A DNA stretch of 64,000 nt from Paracoccus sp. MA (GTDB lineage Bacteria; Pseudomonadota; Alphaproteobacteria; Rhodobacterales; Rhodobacteraceae), in assembly GCF_020990385.1 (NCBI RefSeq), contig NZ_CP087598.1, positions 1,470,001 to 1,534,000 of the forward strand. Direction: 5' to 3'. The notes beneath the pieces were generated by a model that was given only the letters and a program-made list of their open reading frames with translations, searched no databases and was not told where the DNA came from. The position numbers and the translations under genes are program-made. Every line of letters begins with the position of its first letter. Positions within the stretch are counted from its first letter, which is position 1. Below, one piece after another: positions 716 through 43,699 of the stretch.

Positions 716-3668
716 CGAGTCCAACACCGTCGAAGCCCATCTGCGCGACCTTCTCACGGGCGCGGCCTCGGCCCGCCCGGCGCAACTCTCCACCGGCCTC
801 GCGCGCGCAGGCGGCAGGATCGCGGGCCTTGGCTGGCACTACGTCGCCCCCGCCGACCTTCCCCGCCAGCCGAAAGAGGTTCTGGTCGAACCCCATCTGC
901 GCGACGCCCTGATCCGCCTGAACCCCGACATCGCCGCCAACCCCGGCCGGGCCGATGACGTGCTCTACCGTCTGCGCGCCATCGTCATGGGCGCGCGGTC
1001 GGACGGGCTGGTAAAGGCGAACGAGGAATTTGCCGCGTGGGCGCTGGGCGAACGCTCAATGCCCTTCGGCGCAAATGGCGAACATGTCACCATCCGCCTG
1101 ATCGACTTTGACGGGATCGAGAAGAACAGCTTTGTCGTCACCCAGCAGTTCACCGTCCGTGCCGGCAAGACCGAAAAGCGCGCCGATCTGGTGCTGCTGG
1201 TCAACGGCATTCCGCTGGTCCTGATCGAGGCCAAGACGCCGGTGCGGTCCAGCCAAAGCTGGCTCGACGCCGCCTTGCAGGTGCATGACGATTACGAGAA
1301 GAACGTGCCGGAGCTGTTCGTGCCCAACGTCTTTTCGGTGGCGACCGAGGGCAAGGAGTTCCGCTATGGCTCCGTCCGGATGCCGGTTGATATGTGGGGC
1401 CCCTGGCGCGACGGTGACGGCAAGCAATCGCTGGGCGAGGTGGAAAAGGCCGCAGCGTCGATGCTGCGCCCGGCGATGGTGCTCGACATGCTCGACAGCT
1501 TCACCGCGTTCGCCACGCAAAAGGGCAAGCACCGCATCAAGATCATCGCCCGCTATCAGCAGGTGGACGGCGTCAACAAGATCGTCGCGCGGGTCGTGGC
1601 GGGCCAGCCGCGCAAGGGGCTGATCTGGCATTTCCAGGGGTCGGGCAAATCGCTGCTGATGCTGTTCGCCGCGCGCAAGCTGCGGCTGCACCCGGCGCTG
1701 AAGAACCCCACGGTGTTGATCGTGGTGGACCGGATCGACCTCGACAGCCAGATCTCCGGCACCTTCTATGCCGCCGACATGGCCAACATGGTGCGCACGG
1801 AAAGCCGCAAGGAACTGGCCGATCTGCTGGGCAAGGATGCGCGCAAGGTGGTGATCACCACGATCCACAAGTTCGCCGAAGCCGATGGTGTACTGAACGA
1901 CCGCGACAACATCATCGTGCTGGTGGACGAGGCGCACCGCACACAGGAAGGCGATTTGGGCCGCAAGATGCGCGAAGCGCTGCCGAACGCGTTCCTGTTC
2001 GGCCTGACCGGCACCCCGATCAACCGCGCCGACAAGAACACCTTCTACGCCTTTGGCGCCGACACCGACGAAGGCGGCTACATGAGCCGCTATGGCCTGA
2101 ACGACTCGATCCGCGACGGGGCGACGAAGGAGCTGCATTTCGAGCCGCGGCTGGTGGACCTGCACATCGACCAGAAGGCCATCGAGGAGGCCTACGCTGA
2201 GCTGACGCAAGGTCTGACCGACGAGGACCGGGATCGGCTGGGCAAGGCGGCGGCCAAGATGTCGATCCTGGTCAAGGCGCCCGAACGCATCCGCGCGATC
2301 TGCGACGACATCGCCAAGCACTTCCAGGAGAAGGTCGCCCCGAACGGCTTTGGCGCGCAGGTCGTGACCTTCGACCGCGAAAGCTGTCTGCTCTACAAGC
2401 AGGAACTCGACCGCCACTTGCCGCCTGAGGTTTCGGACGTGGTGATCTCGGTCAACAGCGGCGAGCCGGAATATGCGGCCTTCAAGCGCGACCGCGATGC
2501 CGAGGAGAAGCTGCTCGACCGGTTCCGCGATCCGAAGGACCCGCTGAAGATCATCATCGTGACGTCAAAGCTGCTGACCGGCTTCGATGCGCCGATCCTG
2601 CAGACGATGTATCTGGACAAGCCGCTGCGCGACCACACGCTCTTGCAGGCGATCTGCCGGACCAACCGTCCCTATGGCGAGCAGAAGACGCATGGCCTGA
2701 TCGTCGACTACCTCGGCATCTTCGACGACGTGGCGCAGGCGCTGAAGTTCGACGAGGAAGGCGTGCAAAAGGCGGTGTCGAACATCGCCGAGCTGATCAA
2801 CGCACTGCCGACCGCGCTGCAGAAGTGCCTGGCCTATTTTGCGGGCGTGGACCGGAGCCTGACCGGCTACGAGGGCCTGATCGCCGCGCAGGAGTGCATC
2901 CCGAACAACGACCTGCGCGACGCCTTTGCGGCCGACTTCAGCGTGCTCGCGCGGATCTGGGAGGCCCTGTCGCCCGATCCGGTGCTGACGCAGTACGAGA
3001 CCGATTATCGCTGGCTGGCGCAGGTCTACGAGTCGCTGAAGCCCTCCAGCGGCACAGGGCGGCTGCTTTGGCATCGGCTGGGCGCCAAGACCATCGAGCT
3101 GATCCACGAGAACGTCCATGTGGATGCGGTGCGGGATGATCTCGATACGCTGGTTCTGGATGCCGAACTGCTCGAAGCGGTCCTCGGCAACCCTGACCCG
3201 GAAAAGAAGGCCAAGGAAATCTCGGTCAAGCTGGCGGGCCGCCTACGGAAGCATGCGGGGAATCCGAAGTTCAAGGCGCTGGGCGAGCGCCTGGAGGACC
3301 TGAAGAACCGGCATCAGCAGGGTCTCCTGCTGTCGATCGACTTCCTGAAGGAGCTTCTGGCGCTGGCGAAAGACGTGGTTAAGACCGAACGCGAGACGCC
3401 GGAAGAAGAGGACATCGACCGTGGCAAGGCGGCGTTGACCGAGTTGTTCGAGGAAGCCCGGAACGGCGACACGCCCGTGATGGTCAAGCGGGTAGTGGAC
3501 GATATCGATGAGATCGTGCGTGCGGTGAGGTTCGACGGCTGGCAAGCCACGCACGCGGGCGAACGCGAGGTAAAAAAGGCGCTTCGTCAGACGCTCTTTC
3601 GCTACAAGCTGCACCAGGATGCAGAGCTTTTCGAGAAGGCCTACGGGTATATTCGCGAATACTATTGA
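708..3668 (+). CDS. hsdR: Type I restriction endonuclease subunit R (HsdR)
   Basis: This is the motor and nuclease subunit (986 aa) of a type I restriction complex. An N-terminal PD-(D/E)xK nuclease segment ends in LVLIEAK near residue 173. Superfamily 2 helicase motifs follow: Walker A QGSGKS near 310-315, DEAH near 406-409 and LTGTP near 434. The C-terminal third is helical. I chose TTG at 708 because GGAGG (697-701) lies 6 nt upstream and the position overlaps the hsdS stop; an in-frame start at 669 lacks such a site. The gene is intact. A product HsdR2M2S would translocate and cut unmodified DNA. Family assignment is secure; the recognition site cannot be read from sequence. Confidence 0.93.
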   Translation: MFNESNTVEAHLRDLLTGAASARPAQLSTGLARAGGRIAGLGWHYVAPADLPRQPKEVLVEPHLRDALIRLNPDIAANPGRADDVLYRLRAIVMGARSDGLVKANEEFAAWALGERSMPFGANGEHVTIRLIDFDGIEKNSFVVTQQFTVRAGKTEKRADLVLLVNGIPLVLIEAKTPVRSSQSWLDAALQVHDDYEKNVPELFVPNVFSVATEGKEFRYGSVRMPVDMWGPWRDGDGKQSLGEVEKAAASMLRPAMVLDMLDSFTAFATQKGKHRIKIIARYQQVDGVNKIVARVVAGQPRKGLIWHFQGSGKSLLMLFAARKLRLHPALKNPTVLIVVDRIDLDSQISGTFYAADMANMVRTESRKELADLLGKDARKVVITTIHKFAEADGVLNDRDNIIVLVDEAHRTQEGDLGRKMREALPNAFLFGLTGTPINRADKNTFYAFGADTDEGGYMSRYGLNDSIRDGATKELHFEPRLVDLHIDQKAIEEAYAELTQGLTDEDRDRLGKAAAKMSILVKAPERIRAICDDIAKHFQEKVAPNGFGAQVVTFDRESCLLYKQELDRHLPPEVSDVVISVNSGEPEYAAFKRDRDAEEKLLDRFRDPKDPLKIIIVTSKLLTGFDAPILQTMYLDKPLRDHTLLQAICRTNRPYGEQKTHGLIVDYLGIFDDVAQALKFDEEGVQKAVSNIAELINALPTALQKCLAYFAGVDRSLTGYEGLIAAQECIPNNDLRDAFAADFSVLARIWEALSPDPVLTQYETDYRWLAQVYESLKPSSGTGRLLWHRLGAKTIELIHENVHVDAVRDDLDTLVLDAELLEAVLGNPDPEKKAKEISVKLAGRLRKHAGNPKFKALGERLEDLKNRHQQGLLLSIDFLKELLALAKDVVKTERETPEEEDIDRGKAALTELFEEARNGDTPVMVKRVVDDIDEIVRAVRFDGWQATHAGEREVKKALRQTLFRYKLHQDAELFEKAYGYIREYY

Positions 3669-26311: not shown

Positions 26312-28273
26312 CTACTCCGCCGGCTGGGCCGCGGCCCGGCTCTGCCGTGCGCCGGCGGCGACGCGATAGCGCCGGTCGGACAGGCTGATGCAGCCGCCAA
26401 GCGCCATCAGCGCCGAGCCCAGCCAGATCCAGCTGGCGAAGGGCTTGATATAGCTGCGCACCGCCCAGCCGCCGGCCTGCTGCTCGTCGCCGATCACCAG
26501 ATAGAGGTCGCGGAACAGCCCGTTCTGGATCGCCGCCTCGGTCGTCGGCATGGCCTGCACCGGATAGACCCGCTTTTCGGGATGCAGCAGGGCGACCTGC
26601 CGGCCGTCGCGGCCGACCCTCATCGTGGCCACGATGGAATCGTAGTTCGGGCCGGGGCGCTCCTCGACCGCCTCCAGGGTGATGTCATAGCCGGCGACGG
26701 TAAAGGTCTGGCCGACCTGGGCGACGCGGATGTCCTCGACCTGCCAGGCCATCAGCAGGCTGATGCCGATGAAGGTGACGCCCAGCCCGGCATGGGCCAC
26801 CGCCTTGCCCCAATCGGCGCGCGGCAGGCGGCGCAGGCGCGCAAGGCCGGAATTGCCGGTGCGCAGCCACAGGTCGGCCACCGCGCCGCCGACCAGCCAG
26901 GCACCCAGCCCGGCGCCGATCACCGCCAGCGCCGAATGCCCGGTCGAGACGGCAAAGACCAGCGCCATGACGGCGGCGGCAAAGACCAGCGCGCCGCGCA
27001 GCGGATAAAGCACGCGCTTCAGCCGGCCGCGCTTCCAGGGCAGGATGGCGCCCAGCGGCAGGATGATCGCCAGCGCCACCATGAAGGGGGTGAAGGCCTT
27101 CTCGAAGAAGGGCGCGCCGACCGAGAGCTTCTTGTCCCAGGCCATCTCGGCCACCAGCGGCCAGACCGTGCCGATGAAGACCACGAAGGCCGAAACCGCC
27201 AGCAGGATGTTGTTCAGCACCAGCGCCCCCTCGCGCGAGACCGGGGCGAAGGCGCCCCGCGCCTGCATCGAGGCCGCGCGCACGGAAAAGAGCAGCAGCG
27301 CCCCCCCGACGAAGAAGGCCAGAATCGCCAGGATGAACACGCCGCGCTCGGGGTCGCTGGCGAAGCTGTGCACCGAGGTGATGATGCCCGAACGCACGAT
27401 GAAGGTGCCGATCAGCGAGAAGCCGAAGGCCATGATGGCCAGCAGGATGGTCCAGCTTTTCAGCACCTCGCGCTTTTCCACGACGATGGCGGAATGCAGC
27501 AGCGCGGCGGCGATCAGCCAGGGCATGAAACTGGCGTTCTCCACCGGGTCCCAGAACCAGAACCCGCCCCAGCCCAGCTCGTAATAGGCCCACCAGGACC
27601 CCAGCGCGATGCCGATGGTCAGGAAGACCCAGGCCGCCAGCGTCCAGGGCCTGACCCAGCGCGCCCAGGCGGCATCGACCCGCCCCTCGATCAGCGCCGC
27701 CACGGCGAAGCTGAAGGCCATGCTGAGCCCGACATAGCCGAGATAAAGGAACGGCGGATGAAAGGCGAGGCCGGGGTCCTGCAGCAGCGGGTTCAGGTCG
27801 CGCCCGTTGAAGGGCGGGCTCGCCATGCGGGCGAACGGGTTCGAGGTGAACAGGATGAAGGCCAGAAAGGCCGCGCCGATCGCCGCCTGCACCGACAGCA
27901 CCCGCGCCCGCAGCTTGGGCGGCAGGTTGGCGTCGAAGCTGGCCGCCGCCGCGCCGAACAGCGACAGGATCAGCACCCAGAGCAGCATCGAGCCCTCGTG
28001 ATTGCCCCAGACGCCGCTGATCTTGTAGAGCATGGGCTTGGCGGTATGCGAATTCTCGTAGACCAGCGCGACCGAGAAGTCCGAGGTCACGAAGGCCATG
28101 GTCAGCGCCGCGAAGGAAATGCCGATCAGCCCGAATTGCGCCAGCGCGGCGGGGCGGGCGCTGTCGATCCAGCCGCCCCAGCCTCTGGCGGCGCCGATCA
28201 TCGGCACGATCATCTGGAAAAGCGCCACGGCAAAGGCAAGGATCAGGGCGAAATGGCCGATTTCGGCGATCAT
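26312..28273 (-). CDS. ccmF: Haem lyase CcmF
   Basis: A polytopic membrane protein (653 aa) of the cytochrome c haem ligase. The haem-handling WWD domain reads WGGFWFWDPVENASFMPWL, and the family signatures GVWGNHEGSMLLW and FHPPFLYLGYVG are intact. About 15 membrane segments can be seen. ATG 28273 has GGAGGAA upstream. Its usual partner ccmE is not directly upstream but lies beyond a holin/endolysin pair on the same strand. Confidence 0.97.
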   Translation of the reverse strand: MIAEIGHFALILAFAVALFQMIVPMIGAARGWGGWIDSARPAALAQFGLIGISFAALTMAFVTSDFSVALVYENSHTAKPMLYKISGVWGNHEGSMLLWVLILSLFGAAAASFDANLPPKLRARVLSVQAAIGAAFLAFILFTSNPFARMASPPFNGRDLNPLLQDPGLAFHPPFLYLGYVGLSMAFSFAVAALIEGRVDAAWARWVRPWTLAAWVFLTIGIALGSWWAYYELGWGGFWFWDPVENASFMPWLIAAALLHSAIVVEKREVLKSWTILLAIMAFGFSLIGTFIVRSGIITSVHSFASDPERGVFILAILAFFVGGALLLFSVRAASMQARGAFAPVSREGALVLNNILLAVSAFVVFIGTVWPLVAEMAWDKKLSVGAPFFEKAFTPFMVALAIILPLGAILPWKRGRLKRVLYPLRGALVFAAAVMALVFAVSTGHSALAVIGAGLGAWLVGGAVADLWLRTGNSGLARLRRLPRADWGKAVAHAGLGVTFIGISLLMAWQVEDIRVAQVGQTFTVAGYDITLEAVEERPGPNYDSIVATMRVGRDGRQVALLHPEKRVYPVQAMPTTEAAIQNGLFRDLYLVIGDEQQAGGWAVRSYIKPFASWIWLGSALMALGGCISLSDRRYRVAAGARQSRAAAQPAE

Positions 28274-28361: not shown

Positions 28362-28877
28362 CTATTTCGCGGCTTCCGCCTCGGCCCAGTCGCGCAGGGC
28401 CGGATTGTCGCCGAAGGACCCGCCGGCCTCCGGCGTCGGCAGCGTCAGCGGCGTGGCCGGGGGCGCGTTGCGGATGACGGGCCGGCTGCGAAAGTAATGC
28501 GCCTCGCGCGCGCCGAAATAGAAGCTGATGACGGCGCCCAGCAGCCACCAGAGCGGCTCGGGCACAAGGTTCAGGTTCTGCATCCGCAGCCCGAAGCCCT
28601 CGAGCTCGACCATGGCATAGCCGAAGAGCGCCAGCGTCCCCAGCGTCATCATGGGACGCGGCAGCCGGTTCAGCCCGTTCATCATGCCATCGAACCAGCC
28701 CCGCGGCGCGGCGGCGAATTCCGCGCCGTGCTGGGTGATGGCGCGGGCATAGGCTTGCTCGTCCAGCTCCATGCGGCGGGTGGCGTTCTCGCGGAACACC
28801 TCGGCCATGCCGGTGGCGGCATTGGCGACGGTGGCGGCGGCGGCGCCCGCCCCCAGGAAACGGTCCATCAGCCCCAT
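28362..28877 (-). CDS. Holin-like protein of the gene-transfer-agent release type
   Basis: A 171-aa protein matching the GTA holin (3TM) family: an amphipathic N-terminus, then LNRLPRPMMTLGTLALFGYAMVEL (one hydrophobic segment about 73-92, split here for description) and LWWLLGAVISFYFGAREAHYF near 109-129. In Rhodobacter capsulatus such a holin, paired with an endolysin, releases gene transfer agent particles by lysing a subset of cells. It overlaps the upstream endolysin gene by 10 bp. An 84-bp gap separates it from ccmF. No phage structural genes are nearby. Role by family and context, not proven here. Confidence 0.85.
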   Translation of the reverse strand: MGLMDRFLGAGAAAATVANAATGMAEVFRENATRRMELDEQAYARAITQHGAEFAAAPRGWFDGMMNGLNRLPRPMMTLGTLALFGYAMVELEGFGLRMQNLNLVPEPLWWLLGAVISFYFGAREAHYFRSRPVIRNAPPATPLTLPTPEAGGSFGDNPALRDWAEAEAAK

Positions 28878-29479
28878 GCCGCCACCCTTGCGCGATGCTC
28901 GGCCAGCGACAGGTGATAGCGGGGCGAGATGAACTCCTCGGCCCGCAGGATCCAGCCGCCCTTGCCCCCCGATTGCGTGCGGGCGTATTTGCGGCTGGCC
29001 GGGCGCGCATCGCCCAGCGAATAGTAGTAGTTGCGCCGCGCGATGCCGTAGGCATCGGCGAAATGGCCGGGCGCCGCCGCCTCGGCCTGCCGGGCGGCCA
29101 GGATGGTGCGCGGCCCGACCAGGCCGTCGTCGGTCGCGGCAAAGCCCATGCGCGTCACCAGCCGTTGCAGGATCTTCACCGCATTGGTGCCGGCATTGAC
29201 ATACATGTCGAAGACCGAGGCCTGCACCGAGGCCGGCAGTTCCGCCAGATGCGGCCGGCGGAAGTAATGCTCGACGAAGATGCGCTCGGCATCGGCGCGG
29301 GTCAGCGCCTTGACGTCGCGGATGTCGACGCGCCCGTCGCCGGTCCTGTCGATGCCCAGCCGCTGCAGCGTCGCCAGCGTCACCCCGAAATTCGTCGCCC
29401 CGCCCGGATCGTCGGGATCGTTGACGTAGCCCCCCTCACGCGCGACGATCTCGGCCGCGATCTGTTCCACTGTCTTCAT
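28868..29479 (-). CDS. GH108-family peptidoglycan hydrolase (endolysin)
   Basis: A 203-aa lysozyme-like protein of glycoside hydrolase family 108. The catalytic-region motif REGGYVNDPDDPGGATNFG places the likely acid Glu15 near the N-terminus, and a C-terminal peptidoglycan-binding-3-like part follows (FEPTID... equivalent GLVGPRTILAARQ). A short DRTGDGRVDIRD loop (44-55) resembles a calcium-binding loop. No signal peptide is visible, so export would need the adjacent holin. I chose ATG 29479; an upstream TTG would add ten residues. A perfect CtrA box lies 47 bp upstream. Together with the holin it resembles the gene-transfer-agent lysis cassette. Confidence 0.87.
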   Translation of the reverse strand: MKTVEQIAAEIVAREGGYVNDPDDPGGATNFGVTLATLQRLGIDRTGDGRVDIRDVKALTRADAERIFVEHYFRRPHLAELPASVQASVFDMYVNAGTNAVKILQRLVTRMGFAATDDGLVGPRTILAARQAEAAAPGHFADAYGIARRNYYYSLGDARPASRKYARTQSGGKGGWILRAEEFISPRYHLSLAEHRARVAAWG

Positions 29480-29523
29480 GCCAGCCCCCACTTGCTGAAA
29501 TGGGGCCAAGGCTGGGGGAGTGC

Positions 29524-29542
29524 GGTTAACGCCCTGTTAACC
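29524..29542. promoter_or_regulatory. CtrA box upstream of the endolysin/holin genes
   Basis: The perfect palindrome GGTTAAC-GCCCT-GTTAACC contains TTAA-N7-TTAA (29526-29540), the exact full CtrA consensus of alphaproteobacteria. It is in the 77-bp gap between ccmE and the endolysin, 47 bp from the endolysin start. This suggests that lysis genes have their own CtrA-controlled promoter inside the ccm region. Confidence 0.75.
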
Positions 29543-29556
29543 GGGCGCGCGTTGCG

Positions 29557-30000
29557 TCAGGAGTTCGGGTCCTCGTAGACGCCCTGCTCCTTGAGCGAGT
29601 CGATGACCTCGCGCGGCATGTAGTTCTCGTCATGCTTGGCCAGGATCTCGGTGGCGACGAAGGTGTCGCCCTCCATCCGGCCGGTGCCGATCATGCCCTG
29701 GCCTTCGGCGAACAGGTCGGGCAGCACGCCGGTAAAGCGCACCGGGATCGAGGCGCCGCCGTCGGTGACGCGGAAGCTCACCGTCTCGCTGGCGCCGCGG
29801 ATCAGGCTGCCGTCCTCGACCAGACCGCCCAGACGAAAGACCTCGCCGGCCTCGGGGGGGCTTTCGGCCATCTGGCTGGGCGAACGATACAGGTTGATGC
29901 CGTCGCGAAAACCGTAGCCGATCAGCCCGACCGCCAGCACCAGCGCCAGGGCGGCGGCGACAATGATCTGGATGCGGCGCTTTTTCTTCAGTGATTTCAT
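29557..30000 (-). CDS. ccmE: Cytochrome c maturation haem chaperone CcmE
   Basis: A 147-aa haem chaperone. It has an N-terminal membrane anchor (11-29) and a periplasmic OB-fold domain with FRLGGLVEDGS and the haem-binding histidine in AKHDENYMP. Haem is attached here before transfer to CcmF. The gene begins 18 bp after murI and is separated from ccmF by the holin/endolysin pair. Confidence 0.96.
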   Translation of the reverse strand: MKSLKKKRRIQIIVAAALALVLAVGLIGYGFRDGINLYRSPSQMAESPPEAGEVFRLGGLVEDGSLIRGASETVSFRVTDGGASIPVRFTGVLPDLFAEGQGMIGTGRMEGDTFVATEILAKHDENYMPREVIDSLKEQGVYEDPNS

Positions 30001-30018: not shown

Positions 30019-30831
30019 TCAGGCACTTTCGAACCTGATCGGATGGCGGAGGAATTGCGTGGCCTTGCCCGAGACGCGCTCGGCATCGCCGGTGGTCAGG
30101 AAGCGCGAGACAGTGCCGCTGCCCAGCATCTCCGGATGGCGCTTCAGGTAGTCCTCAAGGCTTTCGGCGACAAGATCGGGCTGGGAATAGACCTTGACCT
30201 GCGGCCCCAGCGCCTTCTGGAAGGCGGCCTGCACCAGCGGGTAATGCGTGCAGCCCAGGATCGCCGCCTCGGGATGCGGCATGCGGCGCAGCAGCGCCTC
30301 GACATGGCTGGTCACCAGCGCCTCTGCCAGGATCTCGTCGCCCATCTCGATCGCGTCGACCACGCCGCCGCAGGGCTGGGCCTCGACATCGACGCCGATG
30401 GCGCGGAAGGCCAGTTCGCGCTGGAAGGCCCGGCTGGCGACGGTGGCGGGGGTGGCGAACAGCGCCACATGCTTGACCGCCACCTCGCGCGGCGGCGAGT
30501 TGTCGCCCCAGCGCCGCTCGGTCAGCGCCTCGATCATCGGCACGAAGACCCCCAGCACGCGCTTGCCCTCGGGCAGCCAGGTCTCCTGCATGCGCCGCAG
30601 CGCCGCGGCCGAGGCGGTGTTGCAGGCCAGGATCACCAGGTCGCAGCCTTCGTCCCAAAGCCGCTCGACCCCGGCGCAGGTCAGGTCGAAGATATCCTCG
30701 GCGTCGCGCACCCCATAGGGCGTGTGCTTGTTGTCGCCCAGATAGGCCAAGGGCAGGTCCGGCATGCGGGCGGCAATCGCGGCCAGAACCGTCAGCCCGC
30801 CCAGACCCGAATCGAAAACCCCTACCGCCAT
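30019..30831 (-). CDS. murI: Glutamate racemase
   Basis: It makes D-glutamate for peptidoglycan (270 aa). The catalytic cysteines are Cys70 in LACNTAS and Cys194 in LGCTHYP; Asp7-Ser8 in FDSGLGG start the substrate site. ATG 30831 follows AGGAGG and was chosen over a longer frame. It is first in a minus-strand run murI-ccmE. Confidence 0.95.
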
Positions 30832-43669: not shown

Positions 43670-43699
43670 TTAACCAATCTTTAAGCTCCGGCGGGTTAA
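43670..43699. promoter_or_regulatory. CtrA box upstream of comM
   Basis: TTAA-CCAATCT-TTAA (43670-43684) is an exact TTAA-N7-TTAA CtrA site. A further TTAA half-site inside GGTTAACC lies 11 bp on (43696-43699). The full site ends 44 bp before the comM start codon and about 75 bp from the divergent coaBC start. Confidence 0.72.

Follow-up and report, generated by a model that had tools for sequence, protein, structure and literature searches.

A gene-transfer-agent-type lysis cassette in the ccm operon of Paracoccus sp. MA, with a putative two-input late promoter and a candidate read-through lock

In Rhodobacter capsulatus, the endolysin and holin genes of the gene transfer agent (GTA) RcGTA, rcc00555 and rcc00556, are located outside the main GTA cluster (PMC6363796, PMC9638019). 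GafA binds the R. capsulatus lysis promoter, and endolysin expression requires CtrA as well as GafA (PMC6363796). GafA also binds a 50-bp core GTA promoter probe that holds the -10 element and the start, whose promoter gave no detected CtrA binding (PMC6363796). Putative CtrA half-sites have been placed at three late GTA loci and putative GafA sites at two (PMC9638019); part of the promoter code described below may already be drawn in Figure S7 of that paper. For tspA, the tailspike gene, GafA is reported to shift DNA from 50-100 bp upstream (2026 preprint PMC13420450), and in 2024 GafA sites were stated as not mapped at nucleotide resolution (PMC11150451). In Dinoroseobacter shibae, Dshi_1756/1757 are named as the endolysin/holin pair for GTA release (PMC6473078), and the CtrA motif is TTAAC-N5-GTTAAC (PMC7232146).

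The window, which is the whole 64,000-nucleotide stretch analysed, corresponds to C2:1470001-1534000 of the Paracoccus sp. MA genome (4.47 Mb, three contigs). It contains a comparable endolysin/holin pair. This pair is probably the lysis cassette of the host's Rhodobacter-type GTA, expressed from a two-regulator late promoter and locked against read-through within the ccm operon.

The lysis cassette and the GTA genes of the genome

On the minus strand of the window, the gene order is ccmE, endolysin, holin, ccmF. The endolysin (28868..29479, minus strand; ATG at 29479; 203 aa) matches Glyco_hydro_108 (E 1.9e-27), PG_binding_3 (6e-16) and PHROG 315 (endolysin), and is 53-74% identical to 15 relatives within the family. 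The holin (28362..28877, minus strand; 171 aa) matches PF11351, GTA_holin_3TM (5e-26), which is described in Pfam as 'Holin of 3TMs, for gene-transfer release'. The two frames share 10 bp (28868-28877). Upstream is ccmE (29557..30000, minus strand; PF03100), the presumed source of read-through RNA, and downstream is ccmF (26312..28273, minus strand; PF16327 and PF01578). The Pfam matches and coordinates bear out the original prediction of an overlapping GH108 endolysin and holin between ccmE and ccmF, and an endolysin side by side with a PF11351 holin is the composition of a Rhodobacter-type GTA lysis cassette. The predicted '3TM holin' stands as a member of the GTA_holin_3TM family; '3TM' is the name of that family, and hydropathy gives two clear membrane segments. 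A second PF11351 match in the genome is below the cut-off. Endolysin residues 44-55 read D-x-T-G-D-G-x-V-x-x-x-D, in which the first and last Asp do not vary across an alignment of 16 sequences, and we take this stretch to resemble an EF-hand calcium loop. The gene at 30019-30831, further upstream, is matched by glutamate racemase models below their cut-offs.

PF11351 is present in 126 of 150 genomes of the family, nearly all of them one per genus. Across the 130 loci read, ccmE is upstream or ccmF downstream of the endolysin/holin pair in 119 (both are within the stretch in 81), the pair alone is visible in 11, and no other gene order occurs. Two of the 130 loci (L143 and L146) have no endolysin match and were left out, which leaves 128 fetched loci and the window, 129 in all. 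The arrangement is family-wide and therefore ancestral, so that the cassette would have occupied this place among the ccm genes from the family's ancestor onwards. The pair had been predicted to be inserted in the ccm operon; comparison of the locus across relatives contradicts a recent insertion.

The genome contains three matches to GTA_TIM (PF13547). A GTA head-tail cluster is found at C2:1016500-1036400 (L023), in which TerL, portal, prohead protease, tail completion, tail tube and DUF2460 are recognised. Among the nine proteins scanned there, one head-tail connector match is just below the cut-off and two proteins have no family; a cysE-like frame, judged by eye, comes next. Two prophage-like regions (L021, C2:1833500-1853400, and L022, C1:115500-135400) carry, as judged by eye, GTA-related tails and transposase-like genes. 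The L022 copy has a stop inside the GTA_TIM match. The gafA candidate is the sole DUF6456 protein of the genome (L158, 394 aa), and gafA is listed as a DUF6456 protein in PMC9765227.

Across the 150 genomes, the cassette tends to be lost together with gafA and TerL: it is missing from 11 of the 13 genomes without gafA (p 1e-8) and from 10 of the 16 without TerL (p 8e-6, with TerL presence counted to include partial matches at E 1e-20). gafA is retained in 13 of the 24 genomes without a holin match, and two of these 13 (G120 and G140) have an endolysin near a contig end. PF11351, the head-tail cluster, the gafA candidate and the co-loss together support the assignment of the pair, in the original prediction, as a GTA release module.

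Promoter elements and the genes that share them

Upstream of the endolysin is a full CtrA-type box, TTAACAGGGCGTTAA, of the form TTAA-N7-TTAA (29526..29540, minus strand). Its proximal half (29526-29529) is the family-wide TTAAC half-site. The box fits the D. shibae CtrA motif exactly. An FNR-type reading is ruled out by the spacing, which is N5 followed by GTTAAC and not TTAAC-N4-GTCAA. There are two TTAA-N7-TTAA sites in the window and none in 100 shuffles. Genome-wide (4.47 Mb), the pattern occurs in 16 places and the reversed-pattern control in 11; this count does not discriminate and was set aside as evidence. Of the best 80 named loci of a longer list, 25 are labelled Paracoccus, and 23 of these have the full box no more than 90 bp from the start of the endolysin; 1 of the 55 other loci has it. 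Among the 129 family loci, it is present in the window, in one congener and in one other locus. The box alone is weak evidence genome-wide, and a chance box is unlikely because it is conserved in Paracoccus. The perfect box that had been predicted is thus real and conserved in the genus, at a distance compatible with a CtrA-regulated promoter. From these comparisons, the full box appears to be a Paracoccus trait and the TTAAC half-site general in the family. A ctrA gene was not found in the approximately 0.5 of 4.47 Mb searched (the window, 20 stretches around GTA and gafA, and other loci of the same genome).

A second TTAA-N7-TTAA is located at 43670-43684, just upstream of a YifB-family gene that we take to be comM (ComM-type). 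In D. shibae, CtrA sites are predicted at Com genes, and a role of these genes in the uptake of GTA DNA is discussed (PMC6473078). Because this box is upstream of a ComM-type gene, both boxes of the window may serve GTA, one in donor lysis and one in recipient DNA uptake.

The lysis promoter of the family can be read as CGNRCG-N16-TTAAC-N10-CANNNT. At 90 of 129 loci, a TTAAC precedes the endolysin ATG by 43-73 bp; equally sized intervals next to this one contain it at 0-5 of 128 loci, and shuffles give at most 6. In the logo of the 90 loci, anchored on TTAAC, there is a C, G, C and G at -22, -21, -18 and -17 (89-93%) and a purine at -19 (91%), followed downstream by C at +5 (71%), A at +16 (77%) and T at +20 (82%). 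The CG element of the window, CGCGCG (29546..29551, minus strand), starts 22 bp upstream of TTAAC and is a candidate GafA site. The -10-like element is CAGCCT (29509..29514, minus strand), with the A and T conserved in the 90 loci; in computed folds, it belongs to the segment pairing with the ribosome site. A matrix built from the 90 promoters recovers 119 of the 129 loci, including 30 of 39 that were not used for building. In approximately 0.52 Mb of the genome (20 stretches around GTA and gafA, the window and L021-L023), the lysis promoter is the only site that scores at least 15. Outside this sequence, the promoter of a tailspike-like gene scores 22. Sigma-70 and terminator scans gave no match.

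The lysis-derived matrix misses the core GTA promoters (any match of at least 8 in 4 of 30 TerL loci); these have another layout, TTGACT-N3-CGNACGST-N6-TATAAT (29 of 30 aligned, 4 mis-anchored). In the core promoters, CGNRCGST is located between the -35 and -10; an element in common with the core GTA promoter is expected of a GafA-regulated promoter. The CG element recurs in the core GTA promoters and is therefore a candidate GafA site, which is offered here at base level. The lysis promoter looks two-input, with the CG element and a CtrA half-site. This agrees with the R. capsulatus data, in which GafA and CtrA are both needed (PMC6363796). The original prediction had the cassette wired to CtrA rather than to ccm. 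The conserved box and the separation from ccm by a candidate RNA lock favour this view, and the two-input promoter makes CtrA alone an incomplete description. In the gafA candidate of the same genome, the CG element was not found in the standard arrangement. Across the family, 18 of 31 gafA promoters fit CGNNCG-N16-[CT]TA[AT]N, in a set chosen by this pattern. Many of the family gafA promoters (L189-L218) have a TTAACGAACNGGTAAC-like, CtrA-site-like stretch past the presumed start, which is absent from the Paracoccus sp. MA candidate (L158).

The composite pattern CGNRCG-N16-TTAAC is found in 119 of 121 Paracoccus genomes, with the reversed control more frequent. The genome of Paracoccus sp. 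MA has 3 places and 17 for the control, and most Paracoccus genomes are below control. The pattern is no commoner than its control, and its frequency was therefore rejected as evidence in favour of which genes it matches. The three places are the lysis promoter, a glucokinase-like frame, near which the site may be due to chance, and L157, where TTAAC is followed at 77 bp by the gene of a 764-aa tailspike-like protein with a beta-helix. A sequence search of this protein against solved structures gave no match. In the 150 pattern matches listed, a second TTAA is present at the exact CtrA spacing in 40 (30 genomes) and at any of twelve other offsets in 2.

The 30 family pattern loci read include 15 lysis, 5 BrnA-like, 2 tail-fibre-like or esterase and 1 GTA portal loci, besides 7 without an assignment. 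A further 40 loci, picked without lysis genes from the matches listed, include 8 BrnA-like, 4 AHL synthase, 2 tailspike-like, 2 spike base, 1 GDSL and 2 MuF toxin loci, with 21 left without an assignment; representatives were scanned and the rest were labelled by eye. Among 30 Paracoccus pattern loci read, also from the matches listed, the pattern precedes lysis, spike-like, BrnA-like or MuF genes in 17, and 13 have no assignment. The full box is present in 11 of these 30, always before lysis (6), spike-like (4) or BrnA-like (1) genes. The labels of the L021 and L022 genes, L164, L176, L187, L309 and most spike-like and BrnA-like proteins were read by eye from translations.

When genes are chosen independently of the pattern, the promoter is over threshold at 21 of 30 spike-base genes (control windows, 27 of 600) and at 28 of 30 BrnA-like genes (controls, 47 of 600; ccmE, 3 of 105; ccmF, 4 of 94). 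Ten of the twelve members of the BrnA-like query alignment are among the first 13 loci, and the other 17 loci give 15 positives; of these, L448 is also an earlier pattern match and the site of L447 is just inside the assumed start. The genome of Paracoccus sp. MA has no spike-base match at E 1e-3 and no BrnA-like match at E 1e-8.

The BrnA-like ribbon-helix-helix protein (alignment A2; L429-L458) is the commonest non-lysis target among the family loci read. A literature search found no paper with both gene transfer agent and BrnA. Four AHL synthase genes (L265, L270, L279 and L280) start 45-56 bp below a composite promoter, with Autoind_synth matched in the two scanned, and feedback from GTA production to quorum sensing via AHL synthases is possible. 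MuF-type genes in L275 (383-1438, minus strand) and L274 (584-1900, plus strand) are 48-52 bp below a late-type GTA promoter, and L309 (around 1583-2689, plus strand) resembles them by eye. L275 and L274 agree in their conserved N-terminal part, carry a Phage_Mu_F domain and differ in their C-terminal parts, with PF18431 (RNase A) in L275 and a weak CDI-type match, below the cut-off, in L274. In the C-terminal parts of the 120 listed of 422 relatives, PF18431, PF18451, PF14436 or PF12106 are found. The proteins of L275, L274 and L309 resemble MuF polymorphic toxins and appear to be linked to GTA production. Within the GTA cluster of six other genomes, a composite promoter is located at or just past the end of TerL, before portal (G134:C1:1054270, G019:C21:189464, G002:C10:153889, G062:C27:109765, G089:C7:182985 and G090:C15:61296).

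Folding of the endolysin leader and interpretation of the locus

In phage T4, the ribosome site of the lysozyme gene e is hidden in long transcripts and free in RNA from the late promoter. Computed folding of the Paracoccus leader likewise pairs the ribosome site in long RNA. In the computed fold of RNA from upstream, a hairpin of CCCCAUUU and AAGUGGGG (29486..29505, minus strand) hides the Shine-Dalgarno GGGGG (29485-29489). The 12 nt from the -10 element to the presumed start, which is placed from the -10-like motif only, pair with the endolysin ribosome site in the computed folds.

The folding comparisons used loci with a start codon at the expected place, a score above the matrix threshold and a sufficiently long leader, without L148-L153 (a low-scoring copy and five second copies); the 165-locus set is also without repeated sequences. 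At these 165 loci, the endolysin Shine-Dalgarno window is unpaired on average at 25% in the native RNA, at 36% after shuffling of the 5' part and at 48% in RNA from the presumed start. At 126 of 165 loci, the ribosome site is better hidden with the native arm than with shuffled ones (p 3e-16). The same shuffle test is not significant at the starts of ccmF (42 of 93), ccmE (32 of 92) and the holin (27 of 64).

In a sample of 98 loci, nearly all from different genera, the 12-nt segment pairs with 4.9 of the 10 bases of the Shine-Dalgarno window. Shuffling this segment weakens pairing at 78 of the 98 loci (p 9e-11), and shuffling 40 nt upstream does so at 52 (p 0.40). Arm and ribosome site covary: with segments exchanged between loci the window is 0.342 unpaired, against 0.241 for the native segment, which is better at 76 of 98 (p 2e-10). 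At 34 of the 98 loci, the native arm beats at least 90% of exchanged arms, where about 10 are expected. All the pairing p values treat loci as independent, although the 98-locus sample has nearly one locus for each genus and the controls are drawn from the same loci. At six lysis loci without a ccmE match, the pairing effect is not significant. Paracoccus gives a weaker signal (17 of 26 below shuffled, 0.30 vs 0.35) than the other loci do (109 of 139, 0.24 vs 0.36).

The opening depends on where the RNA is assumed to start. Mean opening holds for starts at +5 to +10 (0.45-0.50 vs 0.23) and is smaller at +3 or +0. In the window, the Shine-Dalgarno is 0.14 unpaired in read-through RNA and 0.62-0.70 if the start is 6-7 nt after the -10; the lock is still closed with a start at +4 or less and opens only from 5-6 nt after the -10. 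Compared with swapped arms (0.15 vs 0.30, quantile 0.275), the arm of the window is not exceptional.

The folding suggests that the endolysin leader is a candidate read-through lock on RNA from ccm. The -10 box cannot be in the RNA of its own promoter, so that, with the start as presumed, the pairing would act only on RNA from upstream. Only ccm-derived RNA would carry the arm, and read-through would therefore be poorly translated. No such lock was found for a GTA endolysin in the literature searched, where the available text of PMC3423380 concerns other matters; this result does not in itself prove novelty.

In the favoured reading of the locus as the host's GTA lysis cassette, a promoter of its own would turn the cassette on at a late stage of GTA production. 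We infer that GafA at CGNRCG (about -49 to -44) and phosphorylated CtrA at the TTAAC half-site (the full box in Paracoccus) would both contribute. Because the cassette sits in a housekeeping operon, ccmE read-through RNA would reach it. In this RNA, the -10-to-start segment would pair with the endolysin Shine-Dalgarno and hinder translation. RNA from the late promoter would be without the arm and translated, and the holin-endolysin pair would therefore lyse only GTA-producing cells. The lock turns the silencing of a lethal cassette inside a constantly used operon into a directly testable question. A broader reading is offered tentatively. In it, a family-wide late GTA promoter code would jointly fire the genes for lysis, head spike and tailspike and those for an AHL synthase, a BrnA-like regulator and MuF toxins, and the -10 region would double as an anti-Shine-Dalgarno arm; lysis genes could live in a housekeeping operon because the -10 region also silences read-through RNA. 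If this were true, GTA-producing cells may release toxins and a signal besides DNA. Such a promoter code predicts new late GTA genes, including toxins and signal synthases.

Among the rival explanations, it is possible, and rather unlikely, that the locus is a GTA lysis cassette in which CGNRCG binds some other factor instead of GafA, or generally accompanies CtrA sites. The promoter targets include AHL synthases and BrnA-like proteins, which to our knowledge are not known as GTA genes, and base-level mapping of GafA sites is stated to be lacking (PMC11150451). However, CGNRCGST between the -35 and -10 of core GTA promoters is placed like the Caulobacter GafZ element, R. capsulatus GafA binds nearby, and the GafA shift upstream of tspA (PMC13420450) fits the place of the element at the beta-helix spike-like gene. 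A companion of CtrA sites is also not congruent with the R. capsulatus core GTA promoter, where CtrA binding was not detected (PMC6363796). The hairpin may also be something other than a read-through lock: with a real start further upstream, it would regulate translation of the GTA transcript or be a by-product of the promoter. This is doubtful. The start is placed from a motif and the arm holds a C-rich stretch after the -10, but swapped arms keep the promoter-specific composition and yet pair worse (76 of 98), and the -10 A and T are at a fixed distance from TTAAC. Leaders with the same promoter, moreover, have no significant effect at BrnA-like (14 of 23 lower, p 0.09) or spike-base genes (11 of 17 lower, p 0.16), with fewer loci and less power.

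It is improbable that the pair acts independently of GTA, in an explosive lysis that yields membrane vesicles and releases AHL. Paracoccus denitrificans releases C16-HSL in vesicles, raised by lysis (PMC10037094), and the promoter type is common to some AHL synthase genes, but that study links the lysis to prophage genes. The co-loss of the cassette with gafA and TerL and the promoter shared with spike-base and tailspike-like genes also argue against it. A prophage remnant is very improbable and is already contradicted, because the arrangement is conserved. Phages do carry GH108-type endolysins (534 records, every one below 60% identity), but a search of 50,697 phage records with the holin gives nothing at E 1e-5, the position is fixed family-wide, the frames are intact, and the two prophage-like GTA_TIM regions of the genome are located elsewhere.

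Comparison with known systems

Unlike the leader of T4 gene e, the Paracoccus leader belongs to a bacterial housekeeping operon, and the -10 box itself is in the arm. The pair rcc00555/rcc00556 resembles the Paracoccus pair in having a putative CtrA half-site and a lysis promoter bound by GafA (PMC6363796, PMC9638019). It differs in that the box of Paracoccus is a full palindromic CtrA-type box, with R. capsulatus compared by description, and the available text of these two papers describes no read-through lock for rcc00555/rcc00556. Dshi_1756/1757 of D. shibae were also compared by description. The Caulobacter GafZ element, ZBE, is likewise located between the -35 and -10 of the core GTA promoter (PMC11150451). 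ZBE is the near-palindrome GCGCCCG-CTGGCGC (PMC11150451), whereas the element in Rhodobacteraceae core promoters is CGNRCGST.
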